From the NCBI GenBank assembly GCA_947172415.1, contig OX359195.1, positions 6,999,001 to 7,063,000 of the forward strand: a stretch of DNA of 64,000 nucleotides, read 5' to 3'. This stretch comes from Chondrosia reniformis. Lineage: Eukaryota > Porifera > Demospongiae > Chondrillida > Chondrillidae. A model generated the notes under the pieces. That model was given only the letters and a program-made list of their open reading frames with translations. It searched no databases and was not told the origin of the DNA. A program made the position numbers and the translations under genes. Shown here in pieces: positions 25,119-64,000 of the stretch. Each line of letters opens with the position of its first letter. Position 1 is the stretch's first letter.

Positions 25119-25364
25119 TTCTCCTCGTGACCTAGACTATGGACACGCCCAAGTTATTGTCATTTTGCAATTGGCTGAGGCTTAATAATTATTCATTTTT
25201 CATCATAGCCTTTGTATTACAATTAACTCGTTTCATGAATTTTATGATTACAAAAATTAAATATATAGAACAAATCATATTAAAAATAATATACATGTTT
25301 CTAGATCATTCATGGATGTTTTTATTAGCAATTTAAATACACAAGTGTTTATATAATCCTTATT

Positions 25365-27410: not shown

Positions 27411-27689
27411 TTTATTAAAACACGAGAGTAAAAGTACCCACTAAATAATCGCCATTTGACTTTCACCCCCATACTTCTTCCCCTTACAGCTTTCTTGGAA
27501 AAAGCAAACATTTCCTACTGCACTAAACTTGAGGTGGTCCCTGTTTGTGTAAACAACACGCAATTAACAATATAACCTAGTAGGAAGTGCTTGCTTGTTT
27601 ACTTAACCGCTCCGCTGGACCTGCAACCAGGCTGTCTTTTGCAATAATTATCTCTTCTTCTACAGAGTGCTAGCTTGCTCGTATCTATA
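27411..27689. promoter_or_regulatory. bidirectional promoter of ST2 and ST3
   Basis: A 279-bp gap between divergent ATGs. I see no TATA box and no CACGTG box, only a pyrimidine-rich stretch (TTATCTCTTCTTCTACAG) just before ST3, which could be a splice acceptor of a 5' UTR intron. Confidence 0.45.
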
Positions 27690-29716: not shown

Positions 29717-29883
29717 ATTTTTCAAAACTATATATTTCTTTCTTATAATTATACATGCATAATCATGATGATTTATATGAATTATGTATACTTTCCTCCT
29801 TTCTGACGGTTATTATGCATACCTTTTGTATAAGGGCGCGATATATACGCACGAGTACGCGATTAAGCAGTAGTCTAGCTATC

Positions 29884-31873: not shown

Positions 31874-32114
31874 TATTGCTAGCCTCACTGAAGGAATAGT
31901 TAGCATGAATTCAATATTATAATGATCGAAGTGTATACTATGTATATAGTCTGAGTATTGCGTAAGATTTTACTAAAGAAAGATTAATGATTAAAACATT
32001 TCAATGACTAAATATGGTAGGTGTGTTAGACCGCAGTCCTACGGGAGCATGTATTTATTGGGTGGTAATTAGAGGGGTAAGCGATACAGTGTTTGGTCGA
32101 AGTATTCTTTAGCT

Positions 32115-32915: not shown

Positions 32916-32978
32916 AAACGATGGCTACATATAATTAAGGAAAAAATATAGGTGATTTGTTAATTGCAGTAGAGTATA

Positions 32979-35851: not shown

Positions 35852-35853
35852 TA

Positions 35854-36624
35854 CGTATAAGTAATTTTTTATTAGATTTTAAAATTACAAGTGGAGCACA
35901 TTTAGTTAGAAAGTTTCGACTGGGTTCTTTATAACCAGAGAATTATATATTTGCATGTATTTACAAAAGTATAACAATATGACAGTAGCATTAATATAGC
36001 TTACCGTATATATAGCGGGAAGATTTGGTGAGGACATAAATTTGGCGATAGATACGGGCAATCCGCCAAATTTATATTCGATTATCGAAATGCGTTATAC
36101 TGTAAGCGTTTGCGTTACATAGCGTTTGGCGCTAACCAGTGTTGTCTAGGTGTTTCGCAGGACATAAAGATATTCCAATATACTAACTTTTTTCTTTTTT
36201 TGATTTCATTAACAGTTTTAATTATTACTTTTTTATTTTGATCTGATTTTTTATTCCAATGTTCAGAATATTACATAATTATATAAATTAAGCAGTTATT
36301 GGATGATATACACAAGAATTAGGACCACCAGCTAGAAAATATTACTTTATCCAGAAAATTTTTGTACTACATTTGCTATTATTTAGGTTCCTAACATTGA
36401 ACAAAATCTTTTCTTCAAAAGTCTTTCATTTGTATAGCATGCATGGAAAGGTTTCTATGCTCCAATCATTGTGATCAGTTTGGAAAATCAACTTCAATTA
36501 TAGATAATTATACTATATAATAGATTAACTGTGTATTGCTCTATAATAACATTGCATAAATTGAAAGAATTAAATGTAGGTTACTTCCATTCCTTTTATT
36601 TGTTCATAACATGAAAAAAAGATT
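35854..36624. other. AT-rich intergenic region with small hairpin
   Basis: No gene seen. TAAATTTGGCG (36037-36047) and CGCCAAATTTA (36064-36074) form a perfect 11-bp stem with a 16-nt loop, inside a GC-richer island (about 36000-36160) that looks like the core of an old palindromic element. Confidence 0.5.
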
Positions 36625-38536
36625 TTATTCTATTACAACATTCACACCGTTTTTTTCAAACACCATGTCCTCTACATGCTTTCCAGCAAAGTGTGCTTCA
36701 ATTTCATGCAGTTTCTTTCCTTTAGTCTCTGGGAGGAAGATTAATACAAAGAAAAAAGAGAGAACAGTGAATCCAGCAAATGTCCAAAACGCACCATAAG
36801 AATGAACAGCATTTTGATAAGAATTAAAGGTAAAGCCAATAATGGTGGCAAAGATCCAATTAACAAATGTAGCAATGCTCATGCACTTTCCTCTAACAGC
36901 CATTGGAAACATCTCTGAAGATAGGAGCCATGGTATGCCACCCCAACCAAGGGAGAAGAAAATAATAAAAGCAGCTACACTAACAATTGCCAAAGCACTA
37001 AAACCTGAGCCACAAATAATATCTGACTTTATACTTGCATTCACCACACTAGAATGTTCACAGTTGTGAGTATCATATAGATAGAAAAACACTCCTAGAG
37101 TTGTACTAAAGATGGCAATTCCCACAGAACCAATCAGCAATAGGATTTTCCTCCCTAGCAAGTCACTCAAAAGAACACAAGGAATAGTTGCTAAGATTTG
37201 AATTCCCCCAATGGCACCAGCAGCAACCTGATTGGCTGATGTAACATTGGCATCTTTAAAGATTATGGAACCATAGAAAATCACAGCATTGATACCAGTA
37301 AATTGTTGGAAAAACATGATAAAAAGAACAAGAATGAGTGGTTTCCAAACTGTGCGCTTAGGGAAGAGTTTAAAGGTCTGCATATATGTCAATTCGTGAT
37401 GGTCAGCCATCCGCTTAGATAGATCCCTTATCTCGGGATCAATGTTAATCTGTGGTCCTCGAAACCATTGCAGTGCATTGCGAGCAGCATTTTCATAATG
37501 CTTCACAAGTAACCATTGCGGAGAATCTTTAACTGTAAAGAGCAGCAGTTCAATCAAGATAACTAAGCCGAAGGCTACAGCCGCAAGGTAGTCGTAGGAA
37601 AGGTCCGTGTAATCATCATTAGTCACTGGGATGGCACCCAGACCATAGACTAGCCCAATACCGAGCACAACATTCAACTGGGGAAGTGTTCCAAGGGTTC
37701 CTCTCAATTTGGCTGGAGCAACCTCCGATATGTACATCTGCAATGCAAAGGAGGATAGATATCAAACAATAAACCACAAAATGATAAATATCCCACCACT
37801 TACTGGTACAACAAGGGAGGCAGCTCCACTGGCATAACCAGTTACTAGACGTCCTGTGTAAATCAGTCCGAGGAAGGCACTTCCCGCGACAAGGCGAGAC
37901 AGTGCTATCAGGGCCCATCCAATTAGGAATGGTATTCCCACTATCATCATCCCAGACCTCCTGCCTACAAGATCAGCTACAGGTCCAAACGTAATACCTC
38001 CAAGTGCAGCACCAACCGGTACAAGCCCCTGGGAGAGAAAGTGGATTGAAAATTAGCGACTGCTAAAGTAAACAATAATAAGTATGCAGCCATCCTCGTA
38101 GGGAAAGGTTAGCATGTAAAATGAAGTAAAACAGTTACTTTTGGCAACTGAACAAAAGTTGGATAGGGTCAGATGGCTAAGTGCTAACTAGTCCGGTGAA
38201 TTTACTTACTCCGAATATATCCTTCATTTCGGAAGAAAAGTTCACTTTGGATAAACCTATTTCAAAACTTTGGGAGGATAGTTGCGCAAGAGCTGGTGAG
38301 GAATAGCCCAATGAGTAACCAAAAAGTATGGAGATCATCACAGCTACCGAGGAAGCGTACAATACCGACCATATTCTCTGCGGGCCGCGGCAAACGGCTC
38401 GCAAATTACCGATAATGCCTTTATTTGTAACTTGTACACTTCCTTGTGAGGTTGAGTCTTCAACTGAAGACTGAAGGGATTTCTTTTCATTGCTAAGAAG
38501 CAGAGGAGATCTCTCCGAATACAGATCCCTTGACAT
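36625..38536 (-). CDS. ST5: GLUT/TRET1-like transporter, most canonical copy
   Basis: Exons 38536-38210, 38028-37804 and 37737-36625 give 554 residues. I chose ATG 38536 (MSRDLYSERSPLLLSNEKK) over an upstream in-frame ATG because it opens with the acidic dileucine signal found in three paralogues. Only this copy keeps the Arg of the loop 4 GR motif (TGRLVTGYASG) and the full TM7 QQ..G.N signature (FQQFTGINAVIFYGS). Other motifs are DLVGRRSG, MYISEVAP, KDSPQWL (Asp and Gln changes), DLLGRKILL, GWGGIPWLLSSEMFP, PETKGKKLHEIE. It is thus the best candidate for a true hexose or trehalose carrier. It is divergent from ST6, with 163 bp between starts. Confidence 0.88.
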
Positions 38537-38699
38537 TCCTCTTCTTGAATAACACGTGACAGATAGGCTAGCTAGCCATAGAAAATAACACGTGACTGAA
38601 CTGAATACAGTTACGCAATTATTGCTCAAGAAAGGTCGGTTTGCATGAGACCATAGATCCTACTACGGCAGTATAGCTAGTCTTAGCTTGTTTGTATAG
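38537..38699. promoter_or_regulatory. ST5/ST6 bidirectional promoter with two CACGTGAC boxes
   Basis: The 163-bp gap holds two copies of AATAACACGTGAC (E-boxes at 38553-38558 and 38589-38594, 36 bp apart). CACGTGAC is most of the CLEAR element GTCACGTGAC bound by TFEB/MITF-type bHLH-Zip factors that drive lysosomal genes. The motif copies are seen directly; the regulator is inferred. Confidence 0.5.
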
Positions 38700-40987
38700 A
38701 TGAATGGAGACATCCTGAATATAGCTCGGGTCGAGTACCACACGGGCCAACCCCAGTTTACCTCGCCTTGGGCCGAACAACTGGAGGCTAGTAAAAGCGC
38801 TGACCTTGTCGAGTCTTCAGTCGAGTTGGCTGCCAACTCTAGCGATAAATGTGAGCGTACTAGTGCGTTCCAGAGTTGTATCGACATCAAAGAGCTCTTA
38901 AAGGGACCAGAGAGACTTTGGGTAGTTTTTTATGCTTCCTGTGTAGCTTCTATTGGCTCCATCGTGTTGGGATATGCCGTTGGAAACACTTCTCCTCTAA
39001 CACTACAACTACAGAATGAAGACTACCAAAGAAATGTTTCTCGTGCGGCTTTCACTAAATTGCATTCTGATATATTTGGAGTGAGCTATGATGTATTAGT
39101 AAATAGTGTATCTATTAAAGCAATGCGTATGTCTGTTTTAGAAAGATACATACAAATAGCCAGCCAGTATTGTGATAGCTAATCTCATACAGAAAATTAC
39201 CATTTTAGTAAATTTCTATCCATCTCCTAATATGGGGTCTTCCCCATCTCTTAATACAGGGTCTCCTACCAACTGGTGCTGCTGTTGGTGGATTAACCTT
39301 TGGGATTGCTGCTGATGTAGCAGGTAGAAAGGTTGGGATGATAATCATGGCAGCTATTTTGCTTGGCGGTTGGGCATTAGTTGCTCTCTCCCGTCTGCTG
39401 CAAGGATCAGCCCTAGTAGGGGTAATCTACACTGGACAGGCTATAATTGGCTACGGCATTGGGAGTGCTTCTTTGATTGTTCCTGTACGTTCCTTTTCTT
39501 TTTATTTTTAAATTCTTCATTGAAATATGTTAATTGTTACACTCTAAATTTTATTAGACTAAGAATTATTCTAAACTTCTTTTAGAGTAAAGGTCTATAG
39601 GGATATAAACCTAGTGGGAGCTTTGGATGAGGATGCAAGAGTTTTCTCCTTCTCCAATGGGCCAGATATAGCTGTTTCTGGGAATTCCACCCTTTATCAT
39701 GAGTGTCCCTGGGAGTCTTTGTATTCTTCTTGATTTTTTGTGTATCCTAGACTCATGTGCACATACATGTTAGTTGTGTGTTGATTGTCAAAAGTATCTG
39801 CACAATTCTATCTATCTTTTTAAATATAGATGTACATATCTGAAGTATCTCCGCCCAAGCTAAGAGGACTTCTAGGCTCATTACCCCAGTTGTGTATCAA
39901 CATTGGTATTCTATTAGTATTTTCTTTTGGAGCTGTCCCAACAGACAATCCCCTGTACAGAGACCTTTCCTATGAGTACCTTGCTTCCATAGCATTTGGT
40001 ATACTGCTTATATATGAACTACTATTATTGACATTGAAAGAATCACCTTTTTGGCTGATTCATAAGCACCATGCAAAGAAAGCCTTAAAATCACTAAAAT
40101 GGCTTCGTGGCCCCAAAATTGACACAGCAGCTGAGCTACAGTTAATTAACGAGAAATTGGAGAAAGATGCTGATTTGAGTTATTTTGATACCTTTAAGCT
40201 CTTTCCAAAGCGAACAGTATGGAAACCTCTGATCCTGGTGTTATGTATGATGGTTTTCCAGCAGTTAAGTGGGATAATCGTAGTCATCTTTTATGCTGCA
40301 ACTATTTTTGATGCTGCTGGAATAGTCAACCCCAACCAAACAGCTGCGGTCTCCATTGGGATCATTCAAGTCATAGCAACAGTCATTTGTGTGCTGCTCA
40401 CAGACTTAGTAGGCAGAAAAGTTCTCTTGATGATAAGCTCCATGGGTCTCTGTCTATGTTTAAGTGCTTTAGGGGCCTACTTCTATGTTTACTTCTCCTA
40501 TGGATGTAGTGAAGGTGCTGCTGAAGTAGTACTTAATGGGACTGCTGCTATGAGTAATTCCACCGATTCAGTTGCCTTGGCATGTGGTAGCAGCTTTAGA
40601 TGGATGGCTATAATCAGCATTGCACTGTTCACGGGTATATACAATATCGGCATGGGAGCTGTTCCGTGGTTACTATCAGCAGAAATGTTTCCCATTGCAG
40701 TTCGTGGAAAGTGCATGAGCATTGCCACTTTTTTGCTTTGGGTTATGGCAACACTTGTCTCTTCAACATTTAGTTCATACCAAGAATTAGTTGGGTCTTA
40801 CGGGGTATTTTGGACTTTTGCTGTCTCCTGTCTTCTCTGCTTTATCTTTGTTATGATTTTCCTCCCTGAGACAAAAGGAAAAACTTTGCTAGAAATTGAA
40901 ATGCACTTTGCCGGGTCACATATTGAAGACATCTTTCTAAGGGAAGAAAGTAATTCATCTTCAAAAGAAGAAACTACAAAGCTCTGA
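38700..40987 (+). CDS. ST6: GLUT/TRET1-like sugar transporter
   Basis: Exons 38700-39080, 39260-39484 and 39830-40987 give 587 residues. Motifs: DVAGRK, MYISEVSPPKLRG, KESPFWL, FQQLSGIIVVIFYAATIF (the TM7 Asn is Ile), DLVGRKVLL, NIGMGAVPWLLSAEMFP in TM10, and PETKGKTLLEIE. The N-terminal tail (about 70 residues) is acidic and lacks an ExxxLL signal. A long loop 9-10 has N-glycosylation sites. Intron 2 carries an R1 repeat copy. It shares a short promoter with ST5. Confidence 0.88.
39588..39755 (+). repeat. dispersed repeat R1 copy in ST6 intron 2
   Basis: From GGTCTATAGGGATATAAACC through TTTCTGGGAATTCCACCC to TTTTTGTGTATCC it matches the other R1 copies, with the leading AT-rich part missing. 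Confidence 0.65.
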
Positions 40988-41627: not shown

Positions 41628-44531
41628 CTACTCCAATTTTATATTCTTTTCCAATTCTGTGTCATTTTCGCATTCATTTTCTGAATTCTGTTGCTTCACT
41701 TGCAACTCAATCTCTTCATTATTCCGTCCCTCAATGCCATCTGAATAGCATGAGCTTTTATCTACTGTAGGATCCTCCAATTCATTCTGACTCAAGACTT
41801 CTACTCTTTTTACTGTTACATCCAATTCTAAATGAACATACCATATACGTATATGCGTTAAAATGTTCATGAGACCAAATTTTCACAAATTTCAAACATA
41901 TTCACAAATATTTCTCATCTCTGCATATGTACCCATACATTTAACATGCACTTTGAACATTACCACTTGATTTCAGCTTTCTTTGCTTTCGGCCATGTAA
42001 CAAAATAGACTGTATTTAAAATGGAAGTTTCATATATAATATATTTCTGTAGCAATCACCATAACTATAACTGTGCATGCTATATATGCATGTTACATCC
42101 TCATTAATAGGTTAAAATATTTCAGTAATAGACAAAGTACATATAAGGTATATATGTGTAAATGTATATACAAACCAGAATGTCTTTATAGAACTCCAGT
42201 GTTTTCGCGTTTATCAGAACAAAGAGGATCACAACTGCTGTTGCCTGCATATTGAGAAGGATATACATATATTTGATGCATAAAAATGGTTGGGAGTTAT
42301 TTAGCAATCACAATCAATGATCAAGACAGTTACTGATGAAGATCTGTATAATAATAATATGGTCTGCATTTTTAAAATATATCATCTATGTATATACAAC
42401 TTCTATTGGTCCCATTATCTCACTAGAAATATGCTAAAAACACAATAAGCTGTTGAATCTCCGTTTCCAAAGTTGATAGCACCCAAACTGAACCCGAAGG
42501 TACAAGCCATTAGTGGCAAAAGCACCAGAGATGTTATCATCAATATCCTGATTGATTACAAAGAAGAGTTAAACATGACAATTTCTCTAGATCTGTATAA
42601 TATTTTATGGCATGCAGATTGTCTAGTAAAGTTTTCCATACCCTCCTTCTTTCAAGAGCTCATACTCCTGTAATGGTGTCATATAATCTGTTCCTTTTCT
42701 GAACACTCTTATCCAAGTAAAAGCACTGATGACTAGCAACCATAAAATGATCTGCACGTATGCATACATGTATGTAAATAAGAAATGCATAATTTGTTCA
42801 AAGGCCAAATTTTCAAAATTCGCATGAATTTTCACACGCATACAATTATCGCTTTACGGTATGTGTGTATTAAGAATATTTTCTACCTTTCTGAACTGGT
42901 TCATTTAATATGCAATGTTTTTATATGCATGGATACACAAATGTACATATATATATACAGGTGAGCCAGGCCACTTAAGATGAACTTGCTTAATACAAAA
43001 TTACAACAAAAACATCCAAGATGTGGTATTACATAACATACTGTGGTAATAACAAGTAGAGGAGCAAGAAATCCCCAGTATAAGCCATCTTCTATACTAA
43101 GCCAACATCTATTATATGGAGAGAAAATGAAGCAATTGCAACTTATAATTAAATGAACGATAACATATGGAAACATAAACACTTTTCATCACTACAGCTA
43201 TCTGGCAATATACGTATATTATAATGATGAATAAAAGGAGTACATACATATACGGTATATATGGAACTAGTACATGTAAAAAATAATAATATATATATAT
43301 GTGTGTTTTACGGCTATGTAACAGTTTTTCTAAGAGCTCACTCAAATGAGTTGATAATGTATTGGCGGTCTTTTATTCTGCTCAGCAGTGTTATCAAAGA
43401 GATTATGAAAGATCCACCTATAATCACAACATAATTATATTAATATTCGCTATTATAAAGAGTTTAAATGTGTTTTACAATACTGTACATGTGCAGCTAT
43501 ATACTGTACGTTACTAACATTATAATGCTTCATGTGGTAAGCCCTTTATATATACTTTGTTATACGTATTTGGTCTAGTGCAATACATATACATACATAT
43601 CTATAATGTGCTAAATACATTGCTAATGCACCTTCCATTAAAATAATCAGCTATATTCTGAGGGTAATAATATTTAATTAATAGAAAATGTGAATAATTT
43701 ATACACTAGTTGTCAATGATGCTGGCCTAGGCCTATCACATACCATAGCTCATGGCTGGAAATGCCAGAATCAAGTATTTATGATTCTCAAGATCTGGAT
43801 ATTTATATAGCGTCAGAGCAAAAGTGTGAATGGCTTGACATAGCATCCACATAAACACAGAGAGTGACCAAAAATGTAAGAAAAAAGTAAATGTTTCACA
43901 ACCTTCCTGCATAAAGGAATGACAGTTATGTATGTTAACGAACCAACAAACAGAAGTACATATATTGCGAATACCCAACATACCAATGTAAAAGTGTACC
44001 CCGCTCCATTTATGTTGATCAGGAAGATTAGCATTGAGCAAGCCAATGATAATGTGATGTTGAAGTTAATAAAATAACACAATCTGAGAAATAGATCCTT
44101 CCTACAGCATATATATAAGTGCATATAATATAATACATTACATCTTTGTTAAGTCAGTATATACGTATATATATATAGAAATGCACACTGACACTTACTT
44201 TAGAGTAGTAAAGAACAGCAATACAGCTACATATATCACAAGTGGGATGGCAGAACCAACATACATGGCACTGGTACCAGAGACGTTGTCACTAGCATCA
44301 GAGATGTTGACACTATCATTGTCACAATCAGTCAGATTGTCTATAGTAATAGGAGTACATCCACTTCCTATGGCCTGTAGCACATGTGCCTTCACTGCCA
44401 GAAGATAGATAACTATAAAAAAGAATACTAATTAAGCTAAAAACATGTATGACCATCCAGATGATCTTTCCACTACCTGATAGCACTGTTTTAATATATT
44501 GCTGCACCATTATTTTAGAGTAAAACTTCAT
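41628..44531 (-). CDS. gene D: secretin/adhesion-type 7TM receptor, short ectodomain
   Basis: Minus-strand exons encode all seven helices: TM1 AMYVGSAIPLVIYVAVLLFF (about 44396-44200), TM2 FNITLSLACSMLIFLININ (44100), TM3 FFLHFWSLSVFMWMLCQAI (43910), TM4 GGSFIISLITLLSRI (43420), ECL2/TM5 CWLSIEDGLYWGFLAPLLV (43110), the rest of TM5 and ICL3 (42745), TM6 SLVLLPLMACTFGFSLGAIN (42540) and TM7 AVVILFVLINAKTL (42240). An acidic tail ends at 41628. CWLS..G.YW.F and the TM6 pattern mark family B2. In front of TM1 there is only a short N-glycosylated acidic segment (DCDNDSVNISDASDNVSG) and no GPS. The first exon (ATG at 44531) is a guess; more 5' exons could have been missed. Gene E is a tandem paralogue. 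Confidence 0.72.
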
Positions 44532-45325
44532 ATATATCTAAATCTATTGTCAATATATCTCCACACTGCTTAATGATCATATATAAAGGACGATAATGGC
44601 CTTTTACAACAAGTTGACAGTATATATATATACGTACGTATGCACCATTAATGTATACTTACTGTATTAGTACATACGTATACTAACTGCAATGAATCAC
44701 TATAATACGTACATGTACACTGCCCGTATTTTAAAATAATAATTTAGGTAAAATAAATTATAGGCATATTAATACAATCGACCAGCAATTAATATTACTA
44801 AATATTCTCCTTGAGAAATACAGTAGCAGTTACAATATATTGTGAGGCAAGTATATATGTATAATTTACAAGATGTGAAGAACCTATAGCTATATAGATG
44901 GCTAGCTTATTTGAGACTCTGCATGTCCTACTGTTTTGTCCAAGTCAAGTAATGCATGTGTGACTCATGATCATGTATGTATTATATAATAATCATACAT
45001 ATTCAATCACAGATACCTATATATATATATATATATATATATACGTCATCAGTCAAACAATTAAGGGTGATTGCACCAATTCTAATATTATGTACGTATA
45101 TATTGCATAGCGTTTATGTATGTATGATAGAAATAATATTAAGTTACAAACACATGTACATTATATCCGCACTCCATTTAAGTTATTACAAGCTGATACA
45201 ACAGTTCCATTCTTTACTGTTTTACTCTATGGCACGCACATCTGCATGTGAAAACAATTTAATGTATAAAACATAGTATTTGTACGTATATTTTCCTGAT
45301 CATACAATATCATAAATAATACCTT
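44532..45325. other. intergenic region with TA run
   Basis: It separates the D start from the E stop. It contains a perfect TA run at 45018-45043 and several TATACGTA palindromes. A small missed 5' exon of gene D cannot be excluded, but I see no coding signature. Confidence 0.5.
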
Positions 45326-48300
45326 TTATCTTGCATCACTGATTGCATATGGCGGATCAGTTAGTGGATCTACAGATACATGTTTCTCATTGGACTTGGT
45401 GCTGTTTTCTTGGCAATCAGGGACTATACCATGTATATATATTAGATGTCGCTGATCATATTATATTATATATATAGTCATTACATTTATACCACAGGTT
45501 CACTTTTATACCATACAGCATACAAAGTTATGGGTTGTTACAGAATGTAACCATTGCCCCCAATACCCAGCAATTGAGTTCATTATGTAAATAAATATTA
45601 TATATATATATAGAACTTTTAATAACCTTCAGATGCCATATTGTTTCCACATTGAAACCGATCCTGCAGGAATTAATGTGTCATGTCAGCATTCAGATTA
45701 TATATTTATATATACCACATTGCCATGGCAACGGGCTAGTCAATGATGCATGGGGTATATTCAGGATATACCCTAAGAAAAGTCAAACAGGATGTGAATC
45801 ATCATGCAGTCACCTGCATTATTGCATCATTGAAAATCAATCAATACCATGGACAATGGAGAATAATAGAGTTATGTTGGACTTTTGTCAGATATATAAA
45901 TATAAGAATAGATCATGAATCTCTGTGAGTATGCATATATGTGTGTATATGTACCTTTATTTGATTGATGTATAATTTAGTCCTCTCATGGAAACCAAAG
46001 TAAGCTACAAAAACTGACAATGCCTAGAAAATATAATCAAAAGAAAACAATACATATTAATATAATATTAATTAATAAATTAATTAATATTAATTAATGG
46101 TGTTATTTTTTAGAATGGTAATATATAATATATACTTGCAACAATCCCAATACACATACGTACAAGCAAGTATATACTGTATGTATATACTATCTATGAA
46201 GGAATAAGGATGTTGTTGCAATCATGTATAAAGTCTTATTGAGCGTCAGCAACATGAATTTACTAATTCTGGACGTTTCAACTCAGAGGTCTTCATCAGC
46301 AATATATTAGTATATTCACGCTGACGCTTAATAAGACTTTATTCTCATATACTATCTATATACAATTAATAACTTATATGTTAAGATATTTAAGTGGTAC
46401 GTAATTGTATATTAAAAACACACCAATAGATTGCTGACAACACTGTAATTTATAGCATGTCTATTTCCATGATTGCTGGCTGCTACGCTGAATCCAAATG
46501 TAAGAGCCATTAATGAAAGCAAGACAACTAAAATAATAATTAGCTTCCTGCAATATTCAATGATAAAAACATGTATATATTCATATCGATGTAGTCAAGT
46601 TTATCAAGTGTTTGTACTGTATACACTTTATAACACTTACAATCCTTTCTTCACTAAAATAAGCTCTTGTTCAGCTGTTAGAATTCCTGTACCCGTATTG
46701 TGAATTCTCATAAGAATGCCAGCACTTACAACCAACAGACCCAAGACTATCTATATAATTATACAGAAAGTATGAATTATATAGTACAGCACCTGAACAT
46801 ATACAGTACATACCAAACTTTAAATGGTGGTAGTATAAATTCTTACCACAATAGCCACAATGATTGGCGCAAGAAAGCTCCAATATACATTTTGTTCAAT
46901 GGGCAGCCAACATCTAGTTAGATAAGATCATATGTGAAATTAATACAGCACAGTTTATATATATACGTACTTGCACTGTATATATAATATGTATAATATA
47001 CATGTAGTTACTATTGTACAATATATTTTGAGTCCATACAGCTCAAAGATTAATTATCCTCCCATCTGCAAGTGTACAGTTGTAAGGGAACATTAAGGGG
47101 TCAAGTAGTTGTGTATATACTATGGTAGAGGTACATTCACCACAACGTACTGGTAATTTGATCCTCTTATTACTATGTACTGTTGATTCTGACCTACCCT
47201 GACACCAATGGTTATGGCAGCCATAAGAAATGAACAACCTATATACACATATACGTATACATGTACGTACATTTTCATTATAATGTTTAATTTGCAATTG
47301 GTTGTATTGCATTTTAATATAGATAATCTATCATCCATCTAAAATGTGATGTATATAGAGAGACATAGTACAACGAGTATTATATATGTATAGGTAATAT
47401 AGAGGGACAATGAAAATTAACGATTATGAACTGTAATTGACGGAGAGCCATGTGGTCAAAACATCTAATTATAACATATTTATTTTTATCACTTTCTGTG
47501 ACAATATATTGCCCAGCAATTGTTTATAATTACTATTTGCTTATAATAAAATTATACACTTCATGTGTTGAAATTAAAAGGATGCATATTATGTAATGAC
47601 AACTATACCTGAATACATATATCAACCACTGCCTATTTGTTGTCATGATATTGTTCAATGAATTAGTGATTGATTAGTGACATTCTCACCATAACCAATG
47701 GCAGGAAATATGTTCAAAAGGATTCTATGATTCTCTAGATCAGGATACTTGTACAGCATTAGACAGAAGATATAAATGGCCTCGCAGACCATCCACATGA
47801 AAACAGACAGGGACATGAAATGAAGAAAGAAGCTCACTGTTTCGCATCCAGTCTGTGTATGAAATGACATTAGTCATTTGGATCATAATATTATTGTGAC
47901 TATACGTATATATATTATATAGTACATAATACATACGTATATATATATAGACCCAAGGGACATAATTTACATGTACGTATATGTCACATTAAAGCAATTG
48001 CAAATGTACGTAAAAATTCAATATTTTTCTCATTTTGTGTTTATTGTTTTACGTATATACATTTATCATACTTTATATATATACTAAGTATTTTCAGTAT
48101 ATTTATCATTATATAAAATTCATTATCTGGAGTCTAAATATGTATATACATTTCCATTGCTGTTCAATTAGTACTTTGTTTAACAGTAAATTGATGAAAA
48201 CAGTATAGTACATAATATAAGTTATACGTATATACAGCTATAATTGCCATTTAATTGATTATGATTCAACAGTTAAGGCTCCTAGATTGAATATGTTAAT

Positions 48301-48750
48301 GTACCTAGTTATACTTACCAGGGAAATGGTTCCACCAGCTCCATTTACACTAATAGCATAGAAAAGCATGGAACAGGCCAAGCAGAGGCATATGTTGAAG
48401 TGATTAAAGTTTGCCAACTTTAAGTACAAATCTTTCCTATGTGCAAGAGAAATGAATATTTTCATGTAGAAATTCAATAGGGATGCCTCTTATAGTTATA
48501 CAAGAGCATCTGTCAAAATTATGTACATATACACATGATATACAATTAAACTCACCACAGTATCACATAGAAGATTAAGATAGCTGTGTAAACAATTAGT
48601 GGCAAAATAGACCCAACTAACATTGCTGTGGTGCCTAATTAAAAGCATTTTGTACGTTATTACATTAAAATTTATTACATGTAATCAATAGAATGTACCC
48701 TGCATTTCTGAATTAGCTGTAGTAATTGAAGTATTCATTTGTGTTGACAT
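45326..48750 (-). CDS. gene E: secretin/adhesion-type 7TM receptor, short ectodomain
   Basis: Exons read on the minus strand: N-terminus MSTQMNTSITTANSEMQ (48750-48702), TM1 AMLVGSILPLIVYTAILIFY (48637), TM2 FNICLCLACSMLFYAISVNG (48437), TM3 FFLHFMSLSVFMWMVCEAIY (47852), TM4 CSFLMAAITIGVRV (47240), ECL2/TM5 CWLPIEQNVYWSFLAPIIV (46912), TM5 end and ICL3 (46752), TM6 LVVLLSLMALTFGFSVAAS (46550), TM7 ALSVFVAYFGFHERTKLYI (46030), a small exon (45655) and the tail ending SVDPLTDPPYAISDAR at 45326. Phases agree at the junctions checked. TM3 is about 70% identical to gene D. The ectodomain is about 17 residues with N-glycosylation sites and no GAIN/GPS, so it cannot self-cleave like classical adhesion GPCRs. 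A missed upstream ectodomain exon is the main alternative. Confidence 0.75.
45720..45731. promoter_or_regulatory. RFX X-box-like palindrome
   Basis: TTGCCATGGCAA, followed by C, matches 13 of 14 positions of the symmetric X-box GTTGCCATGGCAAC. It lies in a 3' intron of gene E, so function is uncertain. Confidence 0.3.
46229..46341. mobile_element. 113-bp palindromic element
   Basis: Arms 46230-46250 (AAAGTCTTATTGAGCGTCAG...) and 46320-46340 are inverse copies with one mismatch. Weaker pairing continues inward (ATGAAT.TACTAAT). It lies in the gene E intron between the TM7 and TM6 exons. No clear target duplication seen. Confidence 0.5.
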
Positions 48751-50256: not shown

Positions 50257-51024
50257 ATGACTGCAGGAGTGTTCAACATTGTAGGAGTATTTCTCCTTTT
50301 TGTAATTTATCCAACTGGTAAGCATATACATAGACTATCTTTGATAAGATTATATTTAACATAGTGGATGAGAACTAAAGTATAATACTGTATATACTAG
50401 AGTTAACACCTCCCATGCAAGGTGGCATTTGATTACTATTATTCCTATACCACTTTACAGAGGGGGTTCCTGTTAGAGGTGCAATCATGCCATTTTGTGA
50501 TGGAAAAACAACCTGTTCAACTCTTAAACAGATAGAAGACCAGACTTTGGCTATATACAATATTACTGGATCTTGCAATATTGATGAAAACTGCAAATCA
50601 ATTGACTGTAATCTTACCAGACACATCCATAATGTGGTTCTGAATTTTGAGCTCAAAGTTGTGCTAAAGCCATGTGAAGGATCTCTTGATCTTCTCATCA
50701 AAGGACAGGGAGATGTGTTGGTGAATGAGACTATTTCAAAGACGTCTTCTCATGAATGTTCCTTCTTCGGCTTACCCTGCATGTACAGTGTATTTGTGGA
50801 AAAGATGAATCTGAATCAGAAGTTTTTTACAGTTACTGGTGTGAATGTTCTATATGTTTCGGTAAGTGTACACATACTTATCCTGTCCATGACATATATG
50901 TGGTTTACTTGTTATATTTTTGCAATATTTGTAGCTTCATGGAAGGTTTGGAGAAGTTCTTGATGAGATCTATTGGAGTGGAATAAATTTCCCTTTGTGT
51001 TGTTTTGATGAAATTCCATATTAA
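50257..51024 (+). CDS. gene F: small Cys-rich secreted protein, family unknown
   Basis: Exons 50257-50317, 50461-50861 and 50935-51024 join in phase to 183 residues. A signal peptide (TAGVFNIVGVFLLFVIYPT) spans exon 1. The mature part has about ten cysteines (PFCDGKTTC, GSCNIDENCKSIDC, KPCEGS, ECSFFGLPC, PLCCFDEIPY) and two N-glycosylation sites (NIT, NET). A beta-rich, disulfide-bonded secreted domain is likely. I do not recognise the family. The next gene is a near-copy with identical exon ends. The strong TATA box suggests regulated, high-level expression. It could be a stand-alone ligand, a defence protein or a matrix component; nothing in the sequence decides. Confidence 0.85.
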
Positions 51025-52641: not shown

Positions 52642-53882
52642 ATGACTACAGGAGTGTTCAGCATTGTAGGAGTACTTCTCCTTTTTGCAATTTATCCAAC
52701 CGGTAAGCAATTAAAATGTATAATACAATGTGGCTGTACTGACAAACAAAGTATAATTAATTAATAGTATACCTGTCTACGTAGGATACTATATATACTT
52801 TTTATAAAATATATACTGAAAAATGAAGTTAAAACCTATGTACAATATACGTAGTAATACATGTATACAGTTAAGTATTTCAATTCATTCAGCAATTTAT
52901 TAAACTATTCTAAATTTGTTGTACATCCCTGGTTTTATTGTATGAACTATAATTATTATTAAGGCACTGTTTTCATTTTATTTAGAGTTGCATGTATATA
53001 CATTTATTCTCATGGGGCCCTCAACTTAGACTCGTAACAATTATTTTACTGATATTATTAGATTATACAATGTCATTTTATAGAGGGGGTTCCTGTTAAA
53101 GGTGCAATCCTGCCCTTTTGTGGTAGAGAAACAACCTGTTCAACTCTTAAACAGATAGAAAACCAGACTTTGGCTATCTACAATATTACTGGATCTTGCA
53201 ATATTGATGAAAACTGCAAATCAATTGACTGTAATCTTACCAGACACATCCATAATGTGGTTCTGAATTTTGAGCTCAAAGTTGTGCTAAAGCCATGTGA
53301 AGGATCCTTTGATCTTCTCATCAAAGGACAGGGAAATGTGTTGGTGAATGAGACTATTTCAAAGACGTCTTCTCATGAATGTTCCTTCTTTGGCTTACCC
53401 TGCATGTACAGTGTATTTGTGGAAAAGATGAATCTGAATCAGAAGTTTTATGCAGTTACTGGTGTGAATATTCTATATGTTTCAGTAAGTTCAATAAGTC
53501 TCATATACGTATATATATATATAATAGGTTTGGTATTCTATACATTATACATATTTAGCTATTAAATGGATCAGTTTTAACGTCTATATACGTACATATA
53601 CATATATATAGTTTAATAATTTTGTATATATGTATACATATAAAATTATTCCTTGTGATATACAATATTGAATGATAATGCATGGTTTCTCTCCTAAAAC
53701 ATGACATCCAAATCATTATTCTGAATCAGTTTTTGACGTTTAAAGTATACATGTATATATTTACCTTTAATTTAATTTTACAATATTTGTAGCTTCATGG
53801 AAAGTTTGGAGAAGTTCTTGATGAGATCTATTGGAGTGGAATAAATTTCCCTTTGTGTTGTTTTGATGAAGTTCCATATTAA
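52642..53882 (+). CDS. gene G: paralogue of gene F, Cys-rich secreted protein
   Basis: Exons 52642-52702, 53084-53484 and 53793-53882 have exactly the exon lengths of gene F (61, 401, 90). Signal peptide TTGVFSIVGVLLLFAIYPT. By my alignment the coding regions differ at about 23 codons, some 17 changing the residue (for example D to G, G to R and K to E in PFCGRETTC). All cysteines are kept and a block of about 135 nt in the middle is identical. Introns are longer and unrelated in sequence. This is a recent tandem duplicate. Confidence 0.85.
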
Positions 53883-54262: not shown

Positions 54263-57200
54263 TTAATCTGCCTTATCCTCCTTTGGCTGAACAAGTGGGA
54301 TATCTTCAACCATCACTCCAGTTTGTGGTTGGCTTTCATTTTTGTTAACATTCTCCTCAATTTTAAATGTAGAATCCGCTCTTTCTGGAAGTGGCTTACG
54401 TTTAGGTTTAACAACTTTAGTATAAATATGTTCATCTAAATTTTCTCCTTGTTTAGCATTGTCGTCAGCTACATTCAAAGCCTCAGCACCACCAACCGAA
54501 CTTGTTGCTTTACCAATACTTGCATAAATATTGCTGCTTTTGATACCATGGGAGGTCTTACTCATTACAGCTATGAATATAGTTGTAGTATATAAAGGAC
54601 ACTTGACCATAATTATATATACGTATGTATGATGCTATATAGACAGGTTTGAATATATACAGTACAAGTTACAATATACTAAGGTAATCTAATATAATAT
54701 AAATAAATAAATAATATAAATAATTCATATGGCTCCAAGAAAGGACTTAGAAACAAAATGGGCATATCATCATAAAGATTAGGGTATAAAACTCATTTTT
54801 AAATAAGGGATTTTTCATATATATATATATATATTCCAGCTCACACATTGATCTTCCACGGGTTCCAGTTGTAGAAGTAAGCAGACTCTACAATTGAATG
54901 CAAATGGCAGTTATCATAAAATAGTCAATTTTTAATTATTTAATTAAATTTTAATTATTCTATTGTTGGATTGTTCTCAACAAATATTTAGCGAATTGTA
55001 TTTTTAGATGCAAAAGTCAGAGATGTATAATCCAATTAGATAAGTTAAAGAAATCCTTATTTTATTACTGTTGTCCTAATATACAATTTTACTGTTTAAC
55101 CTTTTCCTTTAATGTTGTAAAATGTTTCTTTATTCTGCTCCAAACTTTTTCATGCCTGACCACATGAAGTAGAAAGATGAGGAGCCCCTACATATATATA
55201 TATATACAATTATACCAGTATACATATACACGTATATACTTATTATACACTATATGTAGCATGGGTGCCCATTGAATGTAGTTACCTGTAATGTATTGGA
55301 CAATATAAATAGTACAACTAGTACTTCTGTCCCTGGTCCAACAGCAAACAATCCAATCACCCAAGTGAAGCAAAACAGGGGCAGGAGAATGATTGTAGTC
55401 TTCAGCAGTTGCCTATATCATAATATTACATATACATAGTTGAAATCATACACTATAAGCTATAAACTCTTAAAACTGCAACATACTTCCCAGTTTTGAA
55501 TATTTTTGTTGGTTCTTTCTTTTTTGAGACTTCAAAATGTTTTTTACACTGATTTCTGCTTACTGATATCATTGATATGGACAGCAACACAGCATTAACC
55601 TGAGCATTGAACATTACACATTACAACATAGAGAGAAAATATTTAAATAAAATTTTAAATAAAAAAGTTTCAAAGAATTCAAACAGTCATGAATGCACGT
55701 ACCACTAAAATTAATATCATTGGTACAACAAATGCCCAGATTACTCCCAAATATGGTGGCAGCCAACATCTATATATAACAGTCAGAAGCGATCATATAA
55801 TCTGTAGAACTGCATTCACATGCAGAATCTGATGTAAAATATTCTTCTTACGCGTGCACTTCATCAAAGTGAATGCTTTCTGGATCCCATGATTGCCTTC
55901 TAAGGTAAAATTCACTTCTTGAAGCAACAGATATTAAAACAATGGGTAATGGTAAACCTGTATTTGGTAAATAGAGGAAAAATAATTAAAGTCACGAAAT
56001 ATACTTTTGAAAATACACACATATATTTATACACTGAGAGATTACAGTAAATTTATTACCCCATCCAAGTGCAGTGTAGACATAAATCCACTTCTTTTCA
56101 TTAGCTCCAAACACTTTAACAAGAAGGTTGTAGATGAGAACTCCTTCACAGAGTGACCAAGTGAATAACGTCAAAAAGAAATAATGAAGCAGAAAGGCCA
56201 CAAATCTACAGGCATCCTTTAGCAGAAGGAAGAGATATACATGAAAAAACAATTCTAAGTATAATTGTGTATATACAGTGTATATAGATGTTTAGTCATT
56301 ACATTAAGTACATGTTAATAACATATTTAACCAACTGGATTTGTGGTAGCTGAATCTATGCCGGCCAAAAAAATGGTAAGTCCGATTGTGAGAGCAATAC
56401 ACAAGTTGAGGTGAACATAATTATGCACCTTCTGAATCAGCTCTTTTCTAAAATGTATAAATAAGGACAACATCTTATACATGTGTAGTATAATCATTTA
56501 GGGAATTAAGCATAAAGCCATTTTACCTTAAAGATACAAAGAATAAGATGGAGATTATCAGACACACTAGAGAGATGCTACATCCGATATATGTTAGAAC
56601 ATTAAATGCTATGTTGAATCTTGGCTGCAGATAAACAACGAAGGTAACTTAAAGATATAATGTTATTAATACATACATGCATTTACGTATATATAAATTA
56701 TTATTGTATTATTATTATAATTACATGTACTTACTTTATCTACAACTGATACAAGTACAACAAAACTTGTTAAATGTGAGCTTGCACAAGTAACTTTGAA
56801 TCCACTTTCATCCTCAGTAAAATTCCTAATATTTACTCCATTCCTAGACCATCCTCCAGTTCCATTGTTAGTGTCAAAGTCCCAGAACACGCATGTGTAT
56901 TCTCTCTCTTTTCCTCGAGGAATATCAATTGATTTTACTTCATCCTAAGAATTAAGAACACTGCATGTCTTAGCTAAGATGTTTACATTAACATATATAA
57001 CTGTACCTTCAACTTAAATTCAACCAAAAACTTGTCAGTAGAATTCTCAGGTACACTTGCATTGGGCATTCCAGCTATCTGACCTGATATCAATGTAGAG
57101 CCAGGACAAAATTGCTTTCCAGAAGATCTGAGAAGAATGATAAACCATTAAATATTGAATTTTACACACTGCATATACGTATATATGTAGGTATTTGTGA

Positions 57201-60200
57201 TGTAAATAAATGAATTTATGTGTACATTATTATAGAGCAAAAATTAATGTATCAAAATAAACATATTATTTACACTGGCTTTTATGACATGCACACACAC
57301 ATACAAATACGTATATATCTATAGCACCTGTATACAAAGTATGTATATATATAGCTACATGCATATATATATTTCCAAAGTAAATGAGCAACCATCTCTT
57401 TGCATAATGAACTTGTAAACAATCAATTACAAGGGAACAGCTATATATACTTATACAATGGTTTACTTTTTCATAATAGTGATATTACTGTACATACGTA
57501 TACATGTACAATAACTTACCCAAGTTCCGTCAAGCTACACGATAAGTATAACTCTATATTTCTCATGCGAACGATTACAACTGGTCCTTCTGTAAACAAA
57601 GTCAAGAATTAAAATTCACTTCTGGTTATGTATTATTAATTATACACATTTGTAATCCAGGTGTGGAAAATCAAGACATATATACTTACGTATATATAAA
57701 GCATTGATCTTGTAACACTCAATAGCTACAAATATATATGGTTTTGTAAACATACCTAAAATATTTCTAGTTGCTTCTGGAATTGTTAAATTGGTAGCAT
57801 ATTCTATTTGATCTGTGTTCTGTGTAGGTATTTCCCTCCTCTCTTTCCCTGAACTTTTTACTGAATCTAATATTACCTGCCAAACTGAACATAAATAATA
57901 TGAATGCACAATCAAATATTTCCACATGCCATATTCTTATAAAATTAATCATTAAGATTTTAAATTAATTTTTAAGTTTGCTAAATGCAATTCAACTTAC
58001 CTGTATTACTAAAGTTTAACATTCTTTCAGTGGTAATATTTTCAAGACTTTGTGCAATTCTTTCAGTTGCACTCAGGATGCCAATAGATTCAGTGCTACT
58101 AAAAGCTGCTTTATTTTGGATGCTCAAAATGTTACTGATGATGGAAGCTGTACCCTAAGTATAATATACATATGTATACTGCAAATATTCTATACAGCTA
58201 GTACTCTCTAAGTATGTATATATACATTCTGTTTAGAGATCAATTCACAATGAAAAAATTACGTTTAGAGTTCCAAGGGTTGAATTACTTCCAACTGAAA
58301 ATAGTTCAAATTTCTCACCTAAACTGAGAAGAAAAACATAAGAATTAAGTCAAATCAATGAGACTGGTATAAAAATCTGCATTTATCTCTTTATGTCTAC
58401 AGTATATCCATGTTTTCCTCTATCTCTCACGTATGGAAGCTATATATGTGTACAAATTTCCATTTTTCTTTCTCTCTTCCTCCGAACATATACATGTTTA
58501 TTAAGTATACAAATTTCCTACAAAATACAAGGCAATTTACTCTGCTATATTAGACAAAACGTCTACAGTAGTATTTAAGTCTTTTGAAAAAATGGAACCA
58601 TTTCTTGGCTGTGTGGCTTCGTTAAGTTGAACTAATACTTCTACTATATCCTTCCTCTGATTTTCTGATAATGATTCACTGACATTCTTTAAGATGTCAG
58701 TAATCTATAACAAAAAAAGGTTGTAATTAAATACAGAAGTTGATATACATATATACGTATGCGTATGGAACCCAAATGGATATACATGTATAGTTAAACA
58801 TATAGAATATAGCTGTTGAAGAGAAGTTCTACTTTGTAAGGGTATATATATTGCCTTATACGTATAGGCAACATGTCATAGCCATGTACATGCAACATAC
58901 CTTTATAGCAGCCTCCCTAATTGCAGCACTCTCGCATTCAGAGGTATCCACTTCATCCCAAATTCCTCCTGGTAGACATTTTCTTTTGGCGATACCTACA
59001 TTTTATACATGTAAAATAAAAATATCAAAATTTCATCTATGACAGCCAAAATTTACAAAATTATGCATTTGATCACTAACGTACGTACGTAAATATCTAA
59101 TTACGTATATAAGAATTCAAAAGATGCATATATACGTATTATACTATAAGTGAAATGCAATAATTTTCATTTTAATTATATCTTATATAAATAATCATTA
59201 ATAGGAGAGTCATTAAATAATAATACATATAAAATCCATTAACAAACTAACCAACTAATTCTAATAAACTTTCATTGCCAACAACAAGGCTACAGGCCAA
59301 TGTAGCCAATTCTCCAGTTTTGTGTGTTGGCCAGGGAAGTCCCCATTGCACATCAGTTTCAATTGAACATATCTCGGAAGATATATAATTTGATATATTC
59401 ACTATGTACGTATAAATTAATTCAGAAGACTTATATACATTCACATGCATAGTTTCATTGCCACATTTCCTCAAGCTAGCAATAAAATGTATACTCAAAT
59501 ATACATGGTGTTTGTGGCAATCTGAAACAAATCTTAATGCAATTGATATCACTTCTGGAAGCTGTATGTCTATACATTTTTATTAGACTAAGTGTAAAGT
59601 ATACATATATATAGCACAATCACATGAGATTTACATGGGCATCCTTTAGACATTCCTGTTTGGTTGGCTGCTCCCCGCAAAGTAGGACAGTCATCCTATA
59701 AAAGTAAAGGTGCACATGTACGTACCTATATTGTGATTTCTTAAGTTTTAAGTTTAAGTCTTGTATTATATTTTACAGTATGTATATATATATACCTGAG
59801 AATCAGGAACAGTATCCTGATCTGTGTCCTTGTCACACCTGTTTGTGTCTGTCTTAATGAATGGTTCCAGACACTGCATAGATTATATATGAAGAAAATA
59901 AATTGTAGTTTTGTGATTAAATAATTAAAATCATACTTCACACTCTTCATTTTGTGTGGTTGTGATGGCTTTACTACTTATGCAATGTGCCAATATTCCC
60001 ATTCTAAGAGAGTTGCCTTCTAGAGCACTACTAGGTCTGCATGGACAAAATCCTATAGAAATATCATTAATTAATTAAATTAATGTCAATGTATACATTA
60101 TAATATATACCTTTTGGAACGTGTAAGGAAACTCCATTAATAAGGTTCAACTTGGTATTATTACTGATGTGGTCCAAGTTCAAAGAGCTGGAATTGCCGG

Positions 60201-63200
60201 TAACATTGATAAGTCTAATTGCAATGATAACTTGAAAATTTGTGTCATTGATATATATAATATCCACCTCATAAAGGCTGTCATTGCTAAGGTTTAATTG
60301 TCCAGGAAGCTATATACACATACGTGAGAAAACATTTTAAATTTATATTATACTTAATTGCAATATGATAATATGTATGTACATATGTACATGATTGCTA
60401 AAAGGGAGAAATATTTAAAAACATTTTAGTTGTCATTAGAGAGAAGTCTTTTTAAGACTTGCCAGGTTTTTAAGTTCTTCAGTTGCATTACTGAAACTCT
60501 CCCTTTCTTTGAGGTTGGCTGAAACTATCAGTATACTGTCTTCCTCAATCTCTTCCTTAAATGTACACCTGTCAATATTGACTGATTCCCAATTACCTGT
60601 ATTGTTACATTTTCTTGTAGCCATAGCATCAGAAAAAGATTCATAGATCAAAGAACATTTAATTGAAGCTACTTCCCCATTTGGTGTCTCCGTCCAAGTA
60701 ATGTTGTTAACAGTATCAAAATCAACAGAACAACAATCTTTACAATCATTCTATATATTGATATATTGAGGAAGAGTCAAAATGTAGTAATTATTATTTG
60801 AATGCATTATAATAATTACTATATATGTTATATATTCTATATATACGTATACATATGTATATAATTGTTATACATAATACATACCCAGTATATAAAACTG
60901 GTGCAGTTTAAGTACTTACATCTACAAAACGAAGTAGAACTGCGAAGAATGTCAAATGGCTGCTTTCACACAATACATGTCTTAGGAGGGTGGTCTTGTT
61001 AAAAGTGTTTCTAGCTAGCCAAACATTATTGGTTGACCATCCACCAATTCCTTTGTTTGCCTCGTAATCCCAATAAACACAAATATATTCACGTCGCTTG
61101 CCGGCAGGTACCTTGATTTTAGCAACCTCTTCCTGTATACATGTATATCATTATTGATATACATAATATATATATATATACAGCTGTAGTCCAATTATTT
61201 GCATGTTGCTATATGCTTTTAAGCTTAACTCTATAAGTATATATAGGCAAAAATCATTACGTCACACTCAATGCAGCATATGCATATCCTCATAAAATGT
61301 TTTGTGTGAATATTGTATAGAAGGAAATCTCAATAAAAATGCCTACATACATGGTTGTTCGCACCTTTATTAGAAACTCAATTTCAATACTCGCATTAGA
61401 AGCTTGAATGGATGTGTCATTAATGCCAATGACTTGAATGGAAACTATCAGTGATGCAATACTTATAATTTCATCTGATCCTTTCGTGATGTTTGGAGTA
61501 CTATATAATTTGAAGCAATTGCAGAATATTAATGTCCAAAAGTGAAATACGTAAATGACATTAGGATAAATGTACATATGTACGTACATTGACAGTTTTT
61601 TTAATAGTATATTATATTATGGGTGCAATTATAAAAAACTTACTCGGCAAATTGTAATGGTAGATATTCTTCCATGTTATGTAAAACTACATGTGCAATA
61701 TCAACTCCGCCTTTATGAGCTCCTGTACTGTTGATAATCTCTTGTAGAAATGCGAGGGGAATTTTTACTCTTGGTATAAATTTCTGGCTGCTGAAATTTT
61801 GATAAGCCTTTTTAGGAAATTTAACAAAATATAATACCTCTGAGTTGTTAGAAGTGTCCAGGTTAACTGTTATTCCTTCAATGACTAAGGTACGTATATA
61901 CAGTCAGGATATATTAAGAAAATATGTAACTATATATATATAATAAATGTACGTATGTGATATTAATTCGTGTACTTACTTAAATTTTCTGATACGCTAT
62001 TTACATCAGTGTTTCCTTTGTTGAGTGCATGTCTCACAAATCTTTCTGTTGCCCTGAGAAGACTAACAGAATCATTTAATCCTATTTCCTGAGTCTGTTT
62101 ATTAATTTCTTTAAATGATGGCTTGTTGGTATCAGACAATATGTGATCGATAATTTCAAAAATATTCTTAAGGAATAGAAAACAGTAATACATATAAGAT
62201 GATATTTTGGATCCATGGTAAAAACATACATACCTGAAGTGTTAGGATTGTATTTGAGTTTGATTCATCAAATAATTCATTTTGAGCACCTAATCTATGT
62301 ACATACAAACGGTATATATTTATATAATTTCAAGGAATGAGTGCTCTGTTATTGAACCAAATACAATTGCCACATACAGCAAAGTTGATAATACAATTAC
62401 CATATAAACTTATATTATACTTTAGTTAATAATTGATAAACTCACTTTGAAATCTCAACCAAAACTGATATAGCATTCTGAATATCACTGGGAAATATTA
62501 ATTGTGATTGGTTTTTGAGTATTTCAGTTGCATTTTTTAGTTCAGCAGTAATGTTTCTTATCAGATTTCGTACGGATGAAGTCAAGGGTTTATCAGAGTC
62601 ATTAGATTCTAGCAAACCTTCTTGCAAGGCATTGATCTGTTAACGAAGTTCAATAAAGGAATGGAATATTAATACGTACTTCTAATTATTATATTTTAGC
62701 TAAATTATTTCTTGTACATTATACCTTGTCGACTACTTCTAAGAATGGGTTTGTTTCACACAATGTATAGTTAATGAAGGAATCCCATTGACTGTCATTG
62801 CCACATCTTCTGGTTGCAAAATCTGATGCAATTCAAATTATATATACACAACTTTCCATGATACATATGACTATATTGCTCACATCTAGTCGTAATGTTA
62901 TTGCTTGGTGGACATAAGACATGTGCTGTTTGTCCTACCAGGGTTTGGGGCCAAGTCAACATCAAATTTGTTTCATTTAAAAAGGTATTATTTTCCATTT
63001 TGCATGTTCTGTTTATGTTACTTGCAATTGAAGCTGATCACAGTATGGAGGGATATATATTTATATTTATAGATATGGTTCACAATAAACATGTTTACTG
63101 GATATTTTAACTCACCATTGAGCATGCATGTTTCATTTGAAATACACATACTCTAAAAAGAGCATTAAGAGGGAAATGAATTACATATACGCACGTACAT

Positions 63201-64000
63201 ATGTATATTTAAGTCATTTAGTGTGAGCTATTTAAAAATGCCATAATTTACTTGTTTGTATATTTCACATTTATTGTTTTTATTCCTTACAAATGGTGCA
63301 GTACACTAAATAAGAAGAATCATAGCACATAATACGTATATGTATATATATATAAATCTTATATAGCTATTGATCATGAGGTACGTATTATAATTTTATA
63401 TAATTAATGAGGCCACAAGTATAGGTATAATTATAAAGCTAAGCTGACTTACATTGCAGATCTTTCCATGAATACACTCACAAGCAGGTCCTGAAGAAAC
63501 ACACAATCCAGTTATATTTCTAGAATGGGTTTCTTCGCATGAACATTCACCTATTATAGATTAAAAGCAATTAGCAGCATATAATTAGATACGTATGTAT
63601 ATACATAATGTGTGCATATATTATTCAGAGATATATAAACTTACTTCTATTTGGCTTGAAAATCATATTAGAACTTTCTGCTGTGAAATTTAGTGATTCA
63701 ACAAATACAGAGGTTTCATTGATAGTGATCAGTGTTGTTGATTTAATAATAACTAAAACAGCTGAGCTGGTGAGATTTATAATTTCAAAAGTTAAATTGA
63801 GGGAGAAATTATATTTCATGAATGTTTGGTTTAATATCTGCGAAGAGAATATAATAGTTTCATAGTTTATGGCTATGAAAAATATTTAATATATATATAT
63901 ACGTATATACCTTCATTGCATATATATACTGCACGTTCGTATATATATGTGAATATCCTACTCACTGTTTCTGCAGTAGAATATGAGATTACTTCCATTA
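54263..64000 (-). CDS. gene H: adhesion GPCR with two HRM-GAIN-GPS modules (5' incomplete)
   Basis: Many minus-strand exons, N- to C-terminal: edge exon ending SYSTAET; an N-glycosylated beta domain (63840-63640); Cys-rich CSCEETHSRN...CECIHGKIC (63550-63450, EGF-like); HRM1 (TWPQTLVGQTAHVLCPP, then ATRRCGNDSQW, 62995-62717); GAIN1 (62640-61365); GPS1 (CVYWDYEAN..GGWS..., CESSHLTFFAVL, 61132-60921); HRM2 (60748-60560); a second N-glycosylated beta domain (60310-60060); Cys-rich FCPCRPS; a TSP3-like repeat (DKDTDQDTVPDSQDDCP, 59878-59642); HRM3 (59350-58900); GAIN2 (58700-57000); GPS2 (CVFWDFDTN..GGWS..., CASSHLTSFVVL, 56945-56735); and a 7TM (TM1 about 56610, TM3 FLLHYFFLTLFTWSLCEGV, ECL2 CWLPPYLGVIWAF, TM6 LLPLFCFTWVIGLFA, TM7 GLLIFLLHVVRHEKVW). 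The tail has NIYASI and HIYTKV. GPS1 joins HRM2 in phase, so one gene is likely. Confidence 0.8.

Follow-up and report, generated by a model that had tools for sequence, protein, structure and literature searches.

Adhesion GPCRs usually possess a single GAIN/GPS, a layout that is customary rather than a defining rule. The locus reported here places two GPS exons in one in-phase chain ahead of a single 7TM region, which raises the question of whether both modules belong to one receptor and, if they do, how such a receptor arose and what its additional module does. The window, by which we mean the whole 64,000-nucleotide stretch analysed, corresponds to C7:6999001-7063000, and the genome searched comprised 117.4 Mb in 15 contigs.

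Exon chain and domain content

Exons were annotated by hand from three-frame displays and were then joined by script. From HRM-b1 to the stop at 55089 on the minus strand, the chain consists of 34 exons and 33 introns in phase, and the joined exons encode 1545 residues with no internal stops and with agreeing intron phases (Table 1). The domain order reads HRM-b1, HRM-c1, GAIN1, GPS1, a 169-bp intron, HRM-b2, TSP3-like, HRM-c2, GAIN2, GPS2 and a complete 7TM; the remaining introns measure 58-392 bp. All acceptors are AG and 32 of the 33 donors are GT, with weak donors at TM2 (gttggt) and HRM-c2a (gttagt). The sole non-GT donor is a GC donor (GCAAGT, window 60462-60457) that follows HRM-b2.

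Table 1 Features of the two-module receptor gene in window numbering
Feature	Position	Strand	Support
HRM-b1 exon (64223-63966, 5' part outside the window) and beta-rich exon (63837-63645)	63645..64000	-	spliced chain; HRM match C7:7063038-7063205
EGF-like and short Cys exons (63550-63453, 63152-63116)	63116..63550	-	spliced chain; EGF-like named by eye
HRM-c1, two exons	62725..63033	-	spliced chain; Pfam HRM residues 220-270
GAIN1, five exons ahead of the GPS exon	61365..62636	-	chain; profile match to solved GAINs; 36% identity to approximate p84 GAIN
GPS1 exon; putative site HL/T then TFFAVLLRFVD; GTAAGT donor in phase 0	60920..61132	-	Pfam GPS 32.1 bits; chain
Junction intron, 169 bp, phase 0; probable fusion point	60751..60919	-	chain; 60700-60990 occurs once in genome
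HRM-b2 exon, GC donor at 3' end	60463..60750	-	Pfam HRM residues 6-63; genome HRM match 35.1 bits; chain
Beta-rich, EGF-like and TSP3-like exons	59635..60309	-	chain; TSP_3 18.3 bits, below cut-off 25; paralogue exons
HRM-c2, two exons	58901..59401	-	chain; Pfam
GAIN2, six exons ahead of the GPS exon	57007..58704	-	chain; Pfam GAIN 19.5 bits (below cut-off); profile match
GPS2 exon; putative site HL/T then TSFVVLVSVVDK	56735..56944	-	Pfam GPS 40.3 bits
7TM exons TM1-TM7 and stop	55089..56624	-	Pfam 7tm_2 164.6 bits, profile 4-250 of 250; chain

A preliminary description had assigned the receptor to 54263-64000. The gene does lie there, but its coding part stops at 55089, so that the ORF at 54634-54263 is not needed, and it extends in the 5' direction beyond the window. 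The start of HRM-b1 falls at 64223, 5' of the window edge, and still further 5' stretch L009 contains HRM-a1 and FN3 domains, with two of the four upstream ORF pieces exceeding the Pfam fn3 cut-off; these pieces fall outside the 1545-residue chain, which starts at HRM-b1, and no signal peptide was found. An AATAAA at 55066, just past the stop, is weak evidence for the end of the gene because this motif is frequent in this AT-rich DNA and also occurs within the gene. The stretch at 54654-54821 shares 88% identity with a sequence that precedes HRM-b in the neighbouring gene p84 (C7:7088139-7088305) and is possibly a small repeat element.

Pfam analysis of the joined chain returned two HRM stretches in each half (54.6 bits in the first, 47.8 bits in the second), one GPS in each half and one complete 7tm_2 in the second half, all above their cut-offs; no 7tm_2 was found in the first half. 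The 7tm_2 score (cut-off 20.6) and the position of the GPS2 exon directly ahead of the TM1 exon agree with class B2. These results uphold the earlier account of an HRM ahead of each GPS, of an intact HLT in both GPS exons (putative autoproteolysis sites, read from sequence) and of a single 7TM. The Pfam search proposed with that account was less conclusive for GAIN, which fell below the cut-off of 26.5 bits in module 2 and was not reported in module 1. A profile built from GAIN1, GAIN2 and one paralogue nevertheless matched the ADGRL3 (E 1.7e-8), latrophilin-1 and BAI3 structures, and GAIN1 alone matched ADGRL3 among solved structures (E 0.0046, residues 203-342). An exon-wise genome search with the Pfam GAIN model gave zero matches and was also silent on 14 controls, so that it has no bearing on absence.

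GPS1 may be drifting in sequence because, beside an intact HLT, only 15 of 21 family-invariant columns are retained and six are lost. GPS2 retains 21 of 24 invariant columns, a column set drawn differently from that of GPS1. In a three-sequence alignment, the QKFIP and NMEEYLP stretches of GAIN1 resemble p84 and are absent from GAIN2; to judge from this alignment, the membrane-proximal module is therefore not simply the better-kept one.

Several other features were observed in the window. On the minus strand, 43039-48438 contains TM2-, TM3- and TM5-like exons of apparently two further 7tm_2 genes, with no GPS nearby among the matches listed. Two very similar Cys-rich open frames on the plus strand (50433-50960 and 53062-53562) represent a local duplication. 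An open-frame array on both strands at about 23294-40984 appears sugar transporter-like by eye, and a transposase-like pair, also identified by eye, lies inside it at 33403-35404. A search of the whole window against Rfam at gathering thresholds gave no match.

The junction and the neighbouring paralogues

The preliminary description further held that the exon after GPS1 continues in phase into another HRM about 160 bp away, leaving no room for a 7TM. The phase agreement (0/0) stands, but the HRM is a separate exon beyond the 169-bp intron; no 7tm_2 match is listed between GPS1 and HRM-b2, and none emerged from the exon search. Within this intron no ATG frame opens more than 18 residues and neither AATAAA nor ATTAAA is present, while HRM-b2 shows no in-frame Met before residue 43. 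A matrix derived from the chain's own splice sites ranks the GPS1 donor third of 33 in strength and the HRM-b2 acceptor 20th of 33. The junction stretch at 60700-60990 is single-copy in the genome. Because the intron offers no usable start or poly(A) motif, the Met of HRM-b2 comes late and the junction is single-copy, placement of GPS1 and HRM-b2 in one transcription unit is the favoured reading, and it is likely that one protein spans both modules.

Comparison with the array suggests how such a gene could have formed. The neighbours p84 and p100 each contain one HRM-HRM-HRM-GAIN-GPS-7TM unit, with exons for HRM-a, HRM-b, beta, EGF-like, TSP3-like, split HRM-c, GAIN, GPS and TM, and SRCR-like exons further 5' (the SRCR and EGF labels were given by eye). 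The first half of the window gene follows the paralogue layout from HRM-a to GPS and then ends, and its second half follows the layout of p84 and p100 from HRM-b on. HRM-b exons begin in phase 0 in all five cases shown, and the other GPS-TM1 introns are phase 0 in all three (GPS2, p84 and p100).

The GPS sequences themselves also point to separate sources. The GPS1-GPS2 pairwise score of 164 is the lowest for each among 26 rows each; with the other 25 rows GPS1 scores 165-224 and GPS2 171-251. GPS1 aligns best with five of the seven subgroup B rows, gap-free and at 191-224 (one locus accounts for two of the five), whereas subgroup A rows give 165-179 with gaps. The remaining two subgroup B rows (L025 and L026) score 166 with GPS1, no better than subgroup A. 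For GPS2, every one of the 18 subgroup A rows scores above any B row. A 34-row GPS tree left GPS1 unresolved; seven short or distant rows, including the C1b module-1 GPS cut by the locus edge, were then dropped and identical rows merged to give 17, and the resulting tree separates GPS2 with subgroup A from GPS1 with subgroup B (support 95/91).

The layout and phases observed here point to a single adhesion-GPCR gene that was probably produced by fusion of two tandem paralogues and is probably transcribed as one unit, with GAIN2 as its likely joint and GAIN1 as an extra ectodomain module. The upstream partner would have been a gene with FN3 domains, now ending at its GPS exon, and the downstream partner would have resembled the SRCR-type neighbours, now starting at its HRM-b exon. 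The simplest route would be a deletion from the GPS-TM1 intron of one gene to the pre-HRM-b intron of the next, by which the first gene would have lost its 7TM and the second both its N-terminus and its HRM-a; the frame would have been kept because each break falls in an intron of phase 0. Introns of this phase at the two edges of a module thus suggest a route for the in-frame fusion of tandem receptor genes. An exact 3.4-kb tandem duplicate is also present on the same contig (C7:7072523-7075948 and +3430, L009-L010). It contains part of HRM-c and the GAIN, GPS and TM exons to TM5, and is either a recent duplication or an assembly artefact.

Double-module loci elsewhere and alternative readings

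The genome search gave at least 92 GPS matches at E 0.001 and at least 133 7tm_2 exon matches at E 10. Among the GPS matches listed, 32 of 92 had no listed 7tm_2 match within 4 kb downstream, many of which may be members of other families or be followed by 7TM exons missing from the list. The next GPS on the same strand lies within 9 kb for three of the 32 (window GPS1, C1:6405009 and C1:6532998), and the next larger spacing among the matches listed is 9.4 kb (C7:7378759). The two C1 matches mark closely similar double-module loci, C1a (C1:6394001-6411200) and C1b (C1:6523001-6538500; L021-L024). Each runs from HRM-a to GPS, then through a broken TM1, and then from a second HRM-a to GPS and TM1-TM7, the C1b stretch ending inside TM7; no match to TM2-TM7 was found after the broken TM1, between the modules. 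Like the window gene, these loci contain two HRM-GAIN-GPS modules before one 7TM that can be joined in phase. Unlike it, they have their breakpoint close to TM1 and ahead of a Calx-beta-like exon, they keep HRM-a2, and joining their modules requires that a stop-containing TM1 remnant be left out. When it is skipped, the GPS joins in phase to the Calx-beta-like exon (a name given by eye; the exon also occurs upstream in p100), a Ser/Thr-rich exon and HRM-a2; when it is included in C1b, a stop follows. C1a and C1b were counted as one event because the TM1 break is common to both, and the two-module layout seems, from these loci, to have originated in this genome on at least two occasions via different breakpoints. 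The preliminary description chiefly proposed a single gene in which two HRM-GAIN-GPS modules precede one 7TM, and this proposal is well supported by the spliced chain, by the junction intron without a usable start and by this second, differently formed example.

Over 757 codons the TM-less C1 modules contain no stops and differ with dN 0.0264 and dS 0.0638 (ratio 0.41; binomial p about 2e-4, site fractions assumed). A reading of these values as purifying selection was dropped: over 1304 positions, the mostly non-coding stretch between the modules has 14 mismatched and 25 gapped sites, far below the exon dS, and C1a module 1 differs from its own module 2 at 54 positions but from C1b module 1 at 77, so that gene conversion between the C1 copies is likely.

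Other accounts of the window gene were weighed against this evidence. Had a single gene long ago duplicated its own HRM-b to GPS segment, the same exon order and the same present-day protein would have resulted, so that such an internal duplication is a rival to fusion for the origin and not for the present layout. Forcing GPS1 and GPS2 as sisters gave an AU p of 0.065, which is no formal rejection, and both are long branches; their mutual lowest score and the 95/91 support that separates them nevertheless make this origin unlikely. A different suspicion is that the locus is a hybrid pseudogene or a by-product of rapid change in the array, and has no receptor role whether or not it is transcribed. 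The array does show such oddities, namely the exact 3.4-kb duplicate and the broken TM1 remnants on C1, and GPS1 has lost six of its 21 invariant residues. We consider this improbable, however, given 34 exons without a stop or frame break despite a divergent ectodomain, whose exons share about 30-67% identity with four relatives where matched, several matching none.

The chain could also conceal two transcription units. The first would be a TM-less gene that ends after GPS1 and whose product is secreted or decays, and the second would begin within the locus. The array has many tandem genes that are separate, and read-through past the GPS1 donor meets a stop after three codons. This arrangement has marginally less probability still, since the longest ATG peptide in the junction intron is 18 aa, that intron has no poly(A) motif, HRM-b2 has no 5' start, and the second half showed no match to the SRCR-like exons or to a second HRM-a. 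An erroneous joining of two paralogues during assembly might be suspected from the exact tandem duplicate about 10 kb away. Collapse through repeats is unlikely because the junction occurs once in the genome and the halves differ widely in sequence, and we regard such an error as very improbable.

Proposed function and relation to known receptors

In the favoured single fused receptor, GAIN2-GPS2 would most likely serve as the ordinary joint close to the membrane, where the tethered agonist is kept for the 7TM; GAIN2 is taken as the working joint because it is placed where GAINs normally sit. GAIN1-GPS1 would most likely fold as an extra ectodomain module, its cut site lying 631 residues N-terminal of the GPS2 cut site as counted on the spliced chain. 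If GAIN1 cuts, the outer part would be held only non-covalently and could be pulled away without freeing the 7TM-adjacent agonist, in the manner of a mechanical fuse; if it remains uncut, it would serve as a spacer. Excerpts of a 2025 study report that GAIN cleavage is helped by proximity to the ER membrane: in ADGRE2 constructs an mEmerald spacer lowered it from 45% to 10%, and other tested receptors behaved likewise (PMC12488864). Because membrane proximity aids cleavage and GAIN1 sits so far above GPS2, poor cutting would be expected by analogy with these excerpts, and GAIN1 may cut rarely or inefficiently and act as a spacer (PMC12488864). Real cleavage at both GPS1 and GPS2, which in the preliminary description would leave a middle fragment held between the two GAINs in a shedding or force-sensing layout, is accordingly somewhat doubtful. 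A little more doubtful is the fuller proposal of two self-cut non-covalent joints in series, the outer a ligand-facing release fuse and the inner the agonist joint, as a layout arisen at least twice in the genome. Having one GAIN next to the membrane and a second so far from it, such a natural receptor offers a ready test of the proximity rule described in those excerpts (PMC12488864), and is also a test case for two serial joints as a force fuse.

Among open-licence PMC papers, the literature search found no adhesion GPCR with two GAINs or two GPS motifs and no such fusion. No two-GAIN adhesion GPCR was found in excerpts of a 2026 review (PMC13197933), and excerpts on choanoflagellate receptors name none (PMC12716839). 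In the sponge Amphimedon, the SRCR, HRM, fn3, GPS and 7TM vocabulary is common to the window array, and 28 of 40 adhesion receptors have a GPS, the excerpted text making no mention of two in one receptor (PMC4302439). Introns in the window genome are short and TATA-rich, which together with this Amphimedon-like repertoire points to a sponge as the probable source. Secretin receptors (class B1) combine HRM and 7tm_2 without a GPS, whereas the window gene carries GPS motifs. Canonical GPS motifs contain a second Cys pair, which is missing from those of the window gene. The closest resemblance is to HRM/GAIN/7TM adhesion GPCRs of class B2 such as the latrophilins (ADGRL), with which the second half of the gene shares the HRM-GAIN-GPS-7tm_2 order, the HLT site and the ADGRL3 GAIN profile match; the window gene differs from them in its extra upstream HRM-HRM-GAIN-GPS block without a 7TM of its own.
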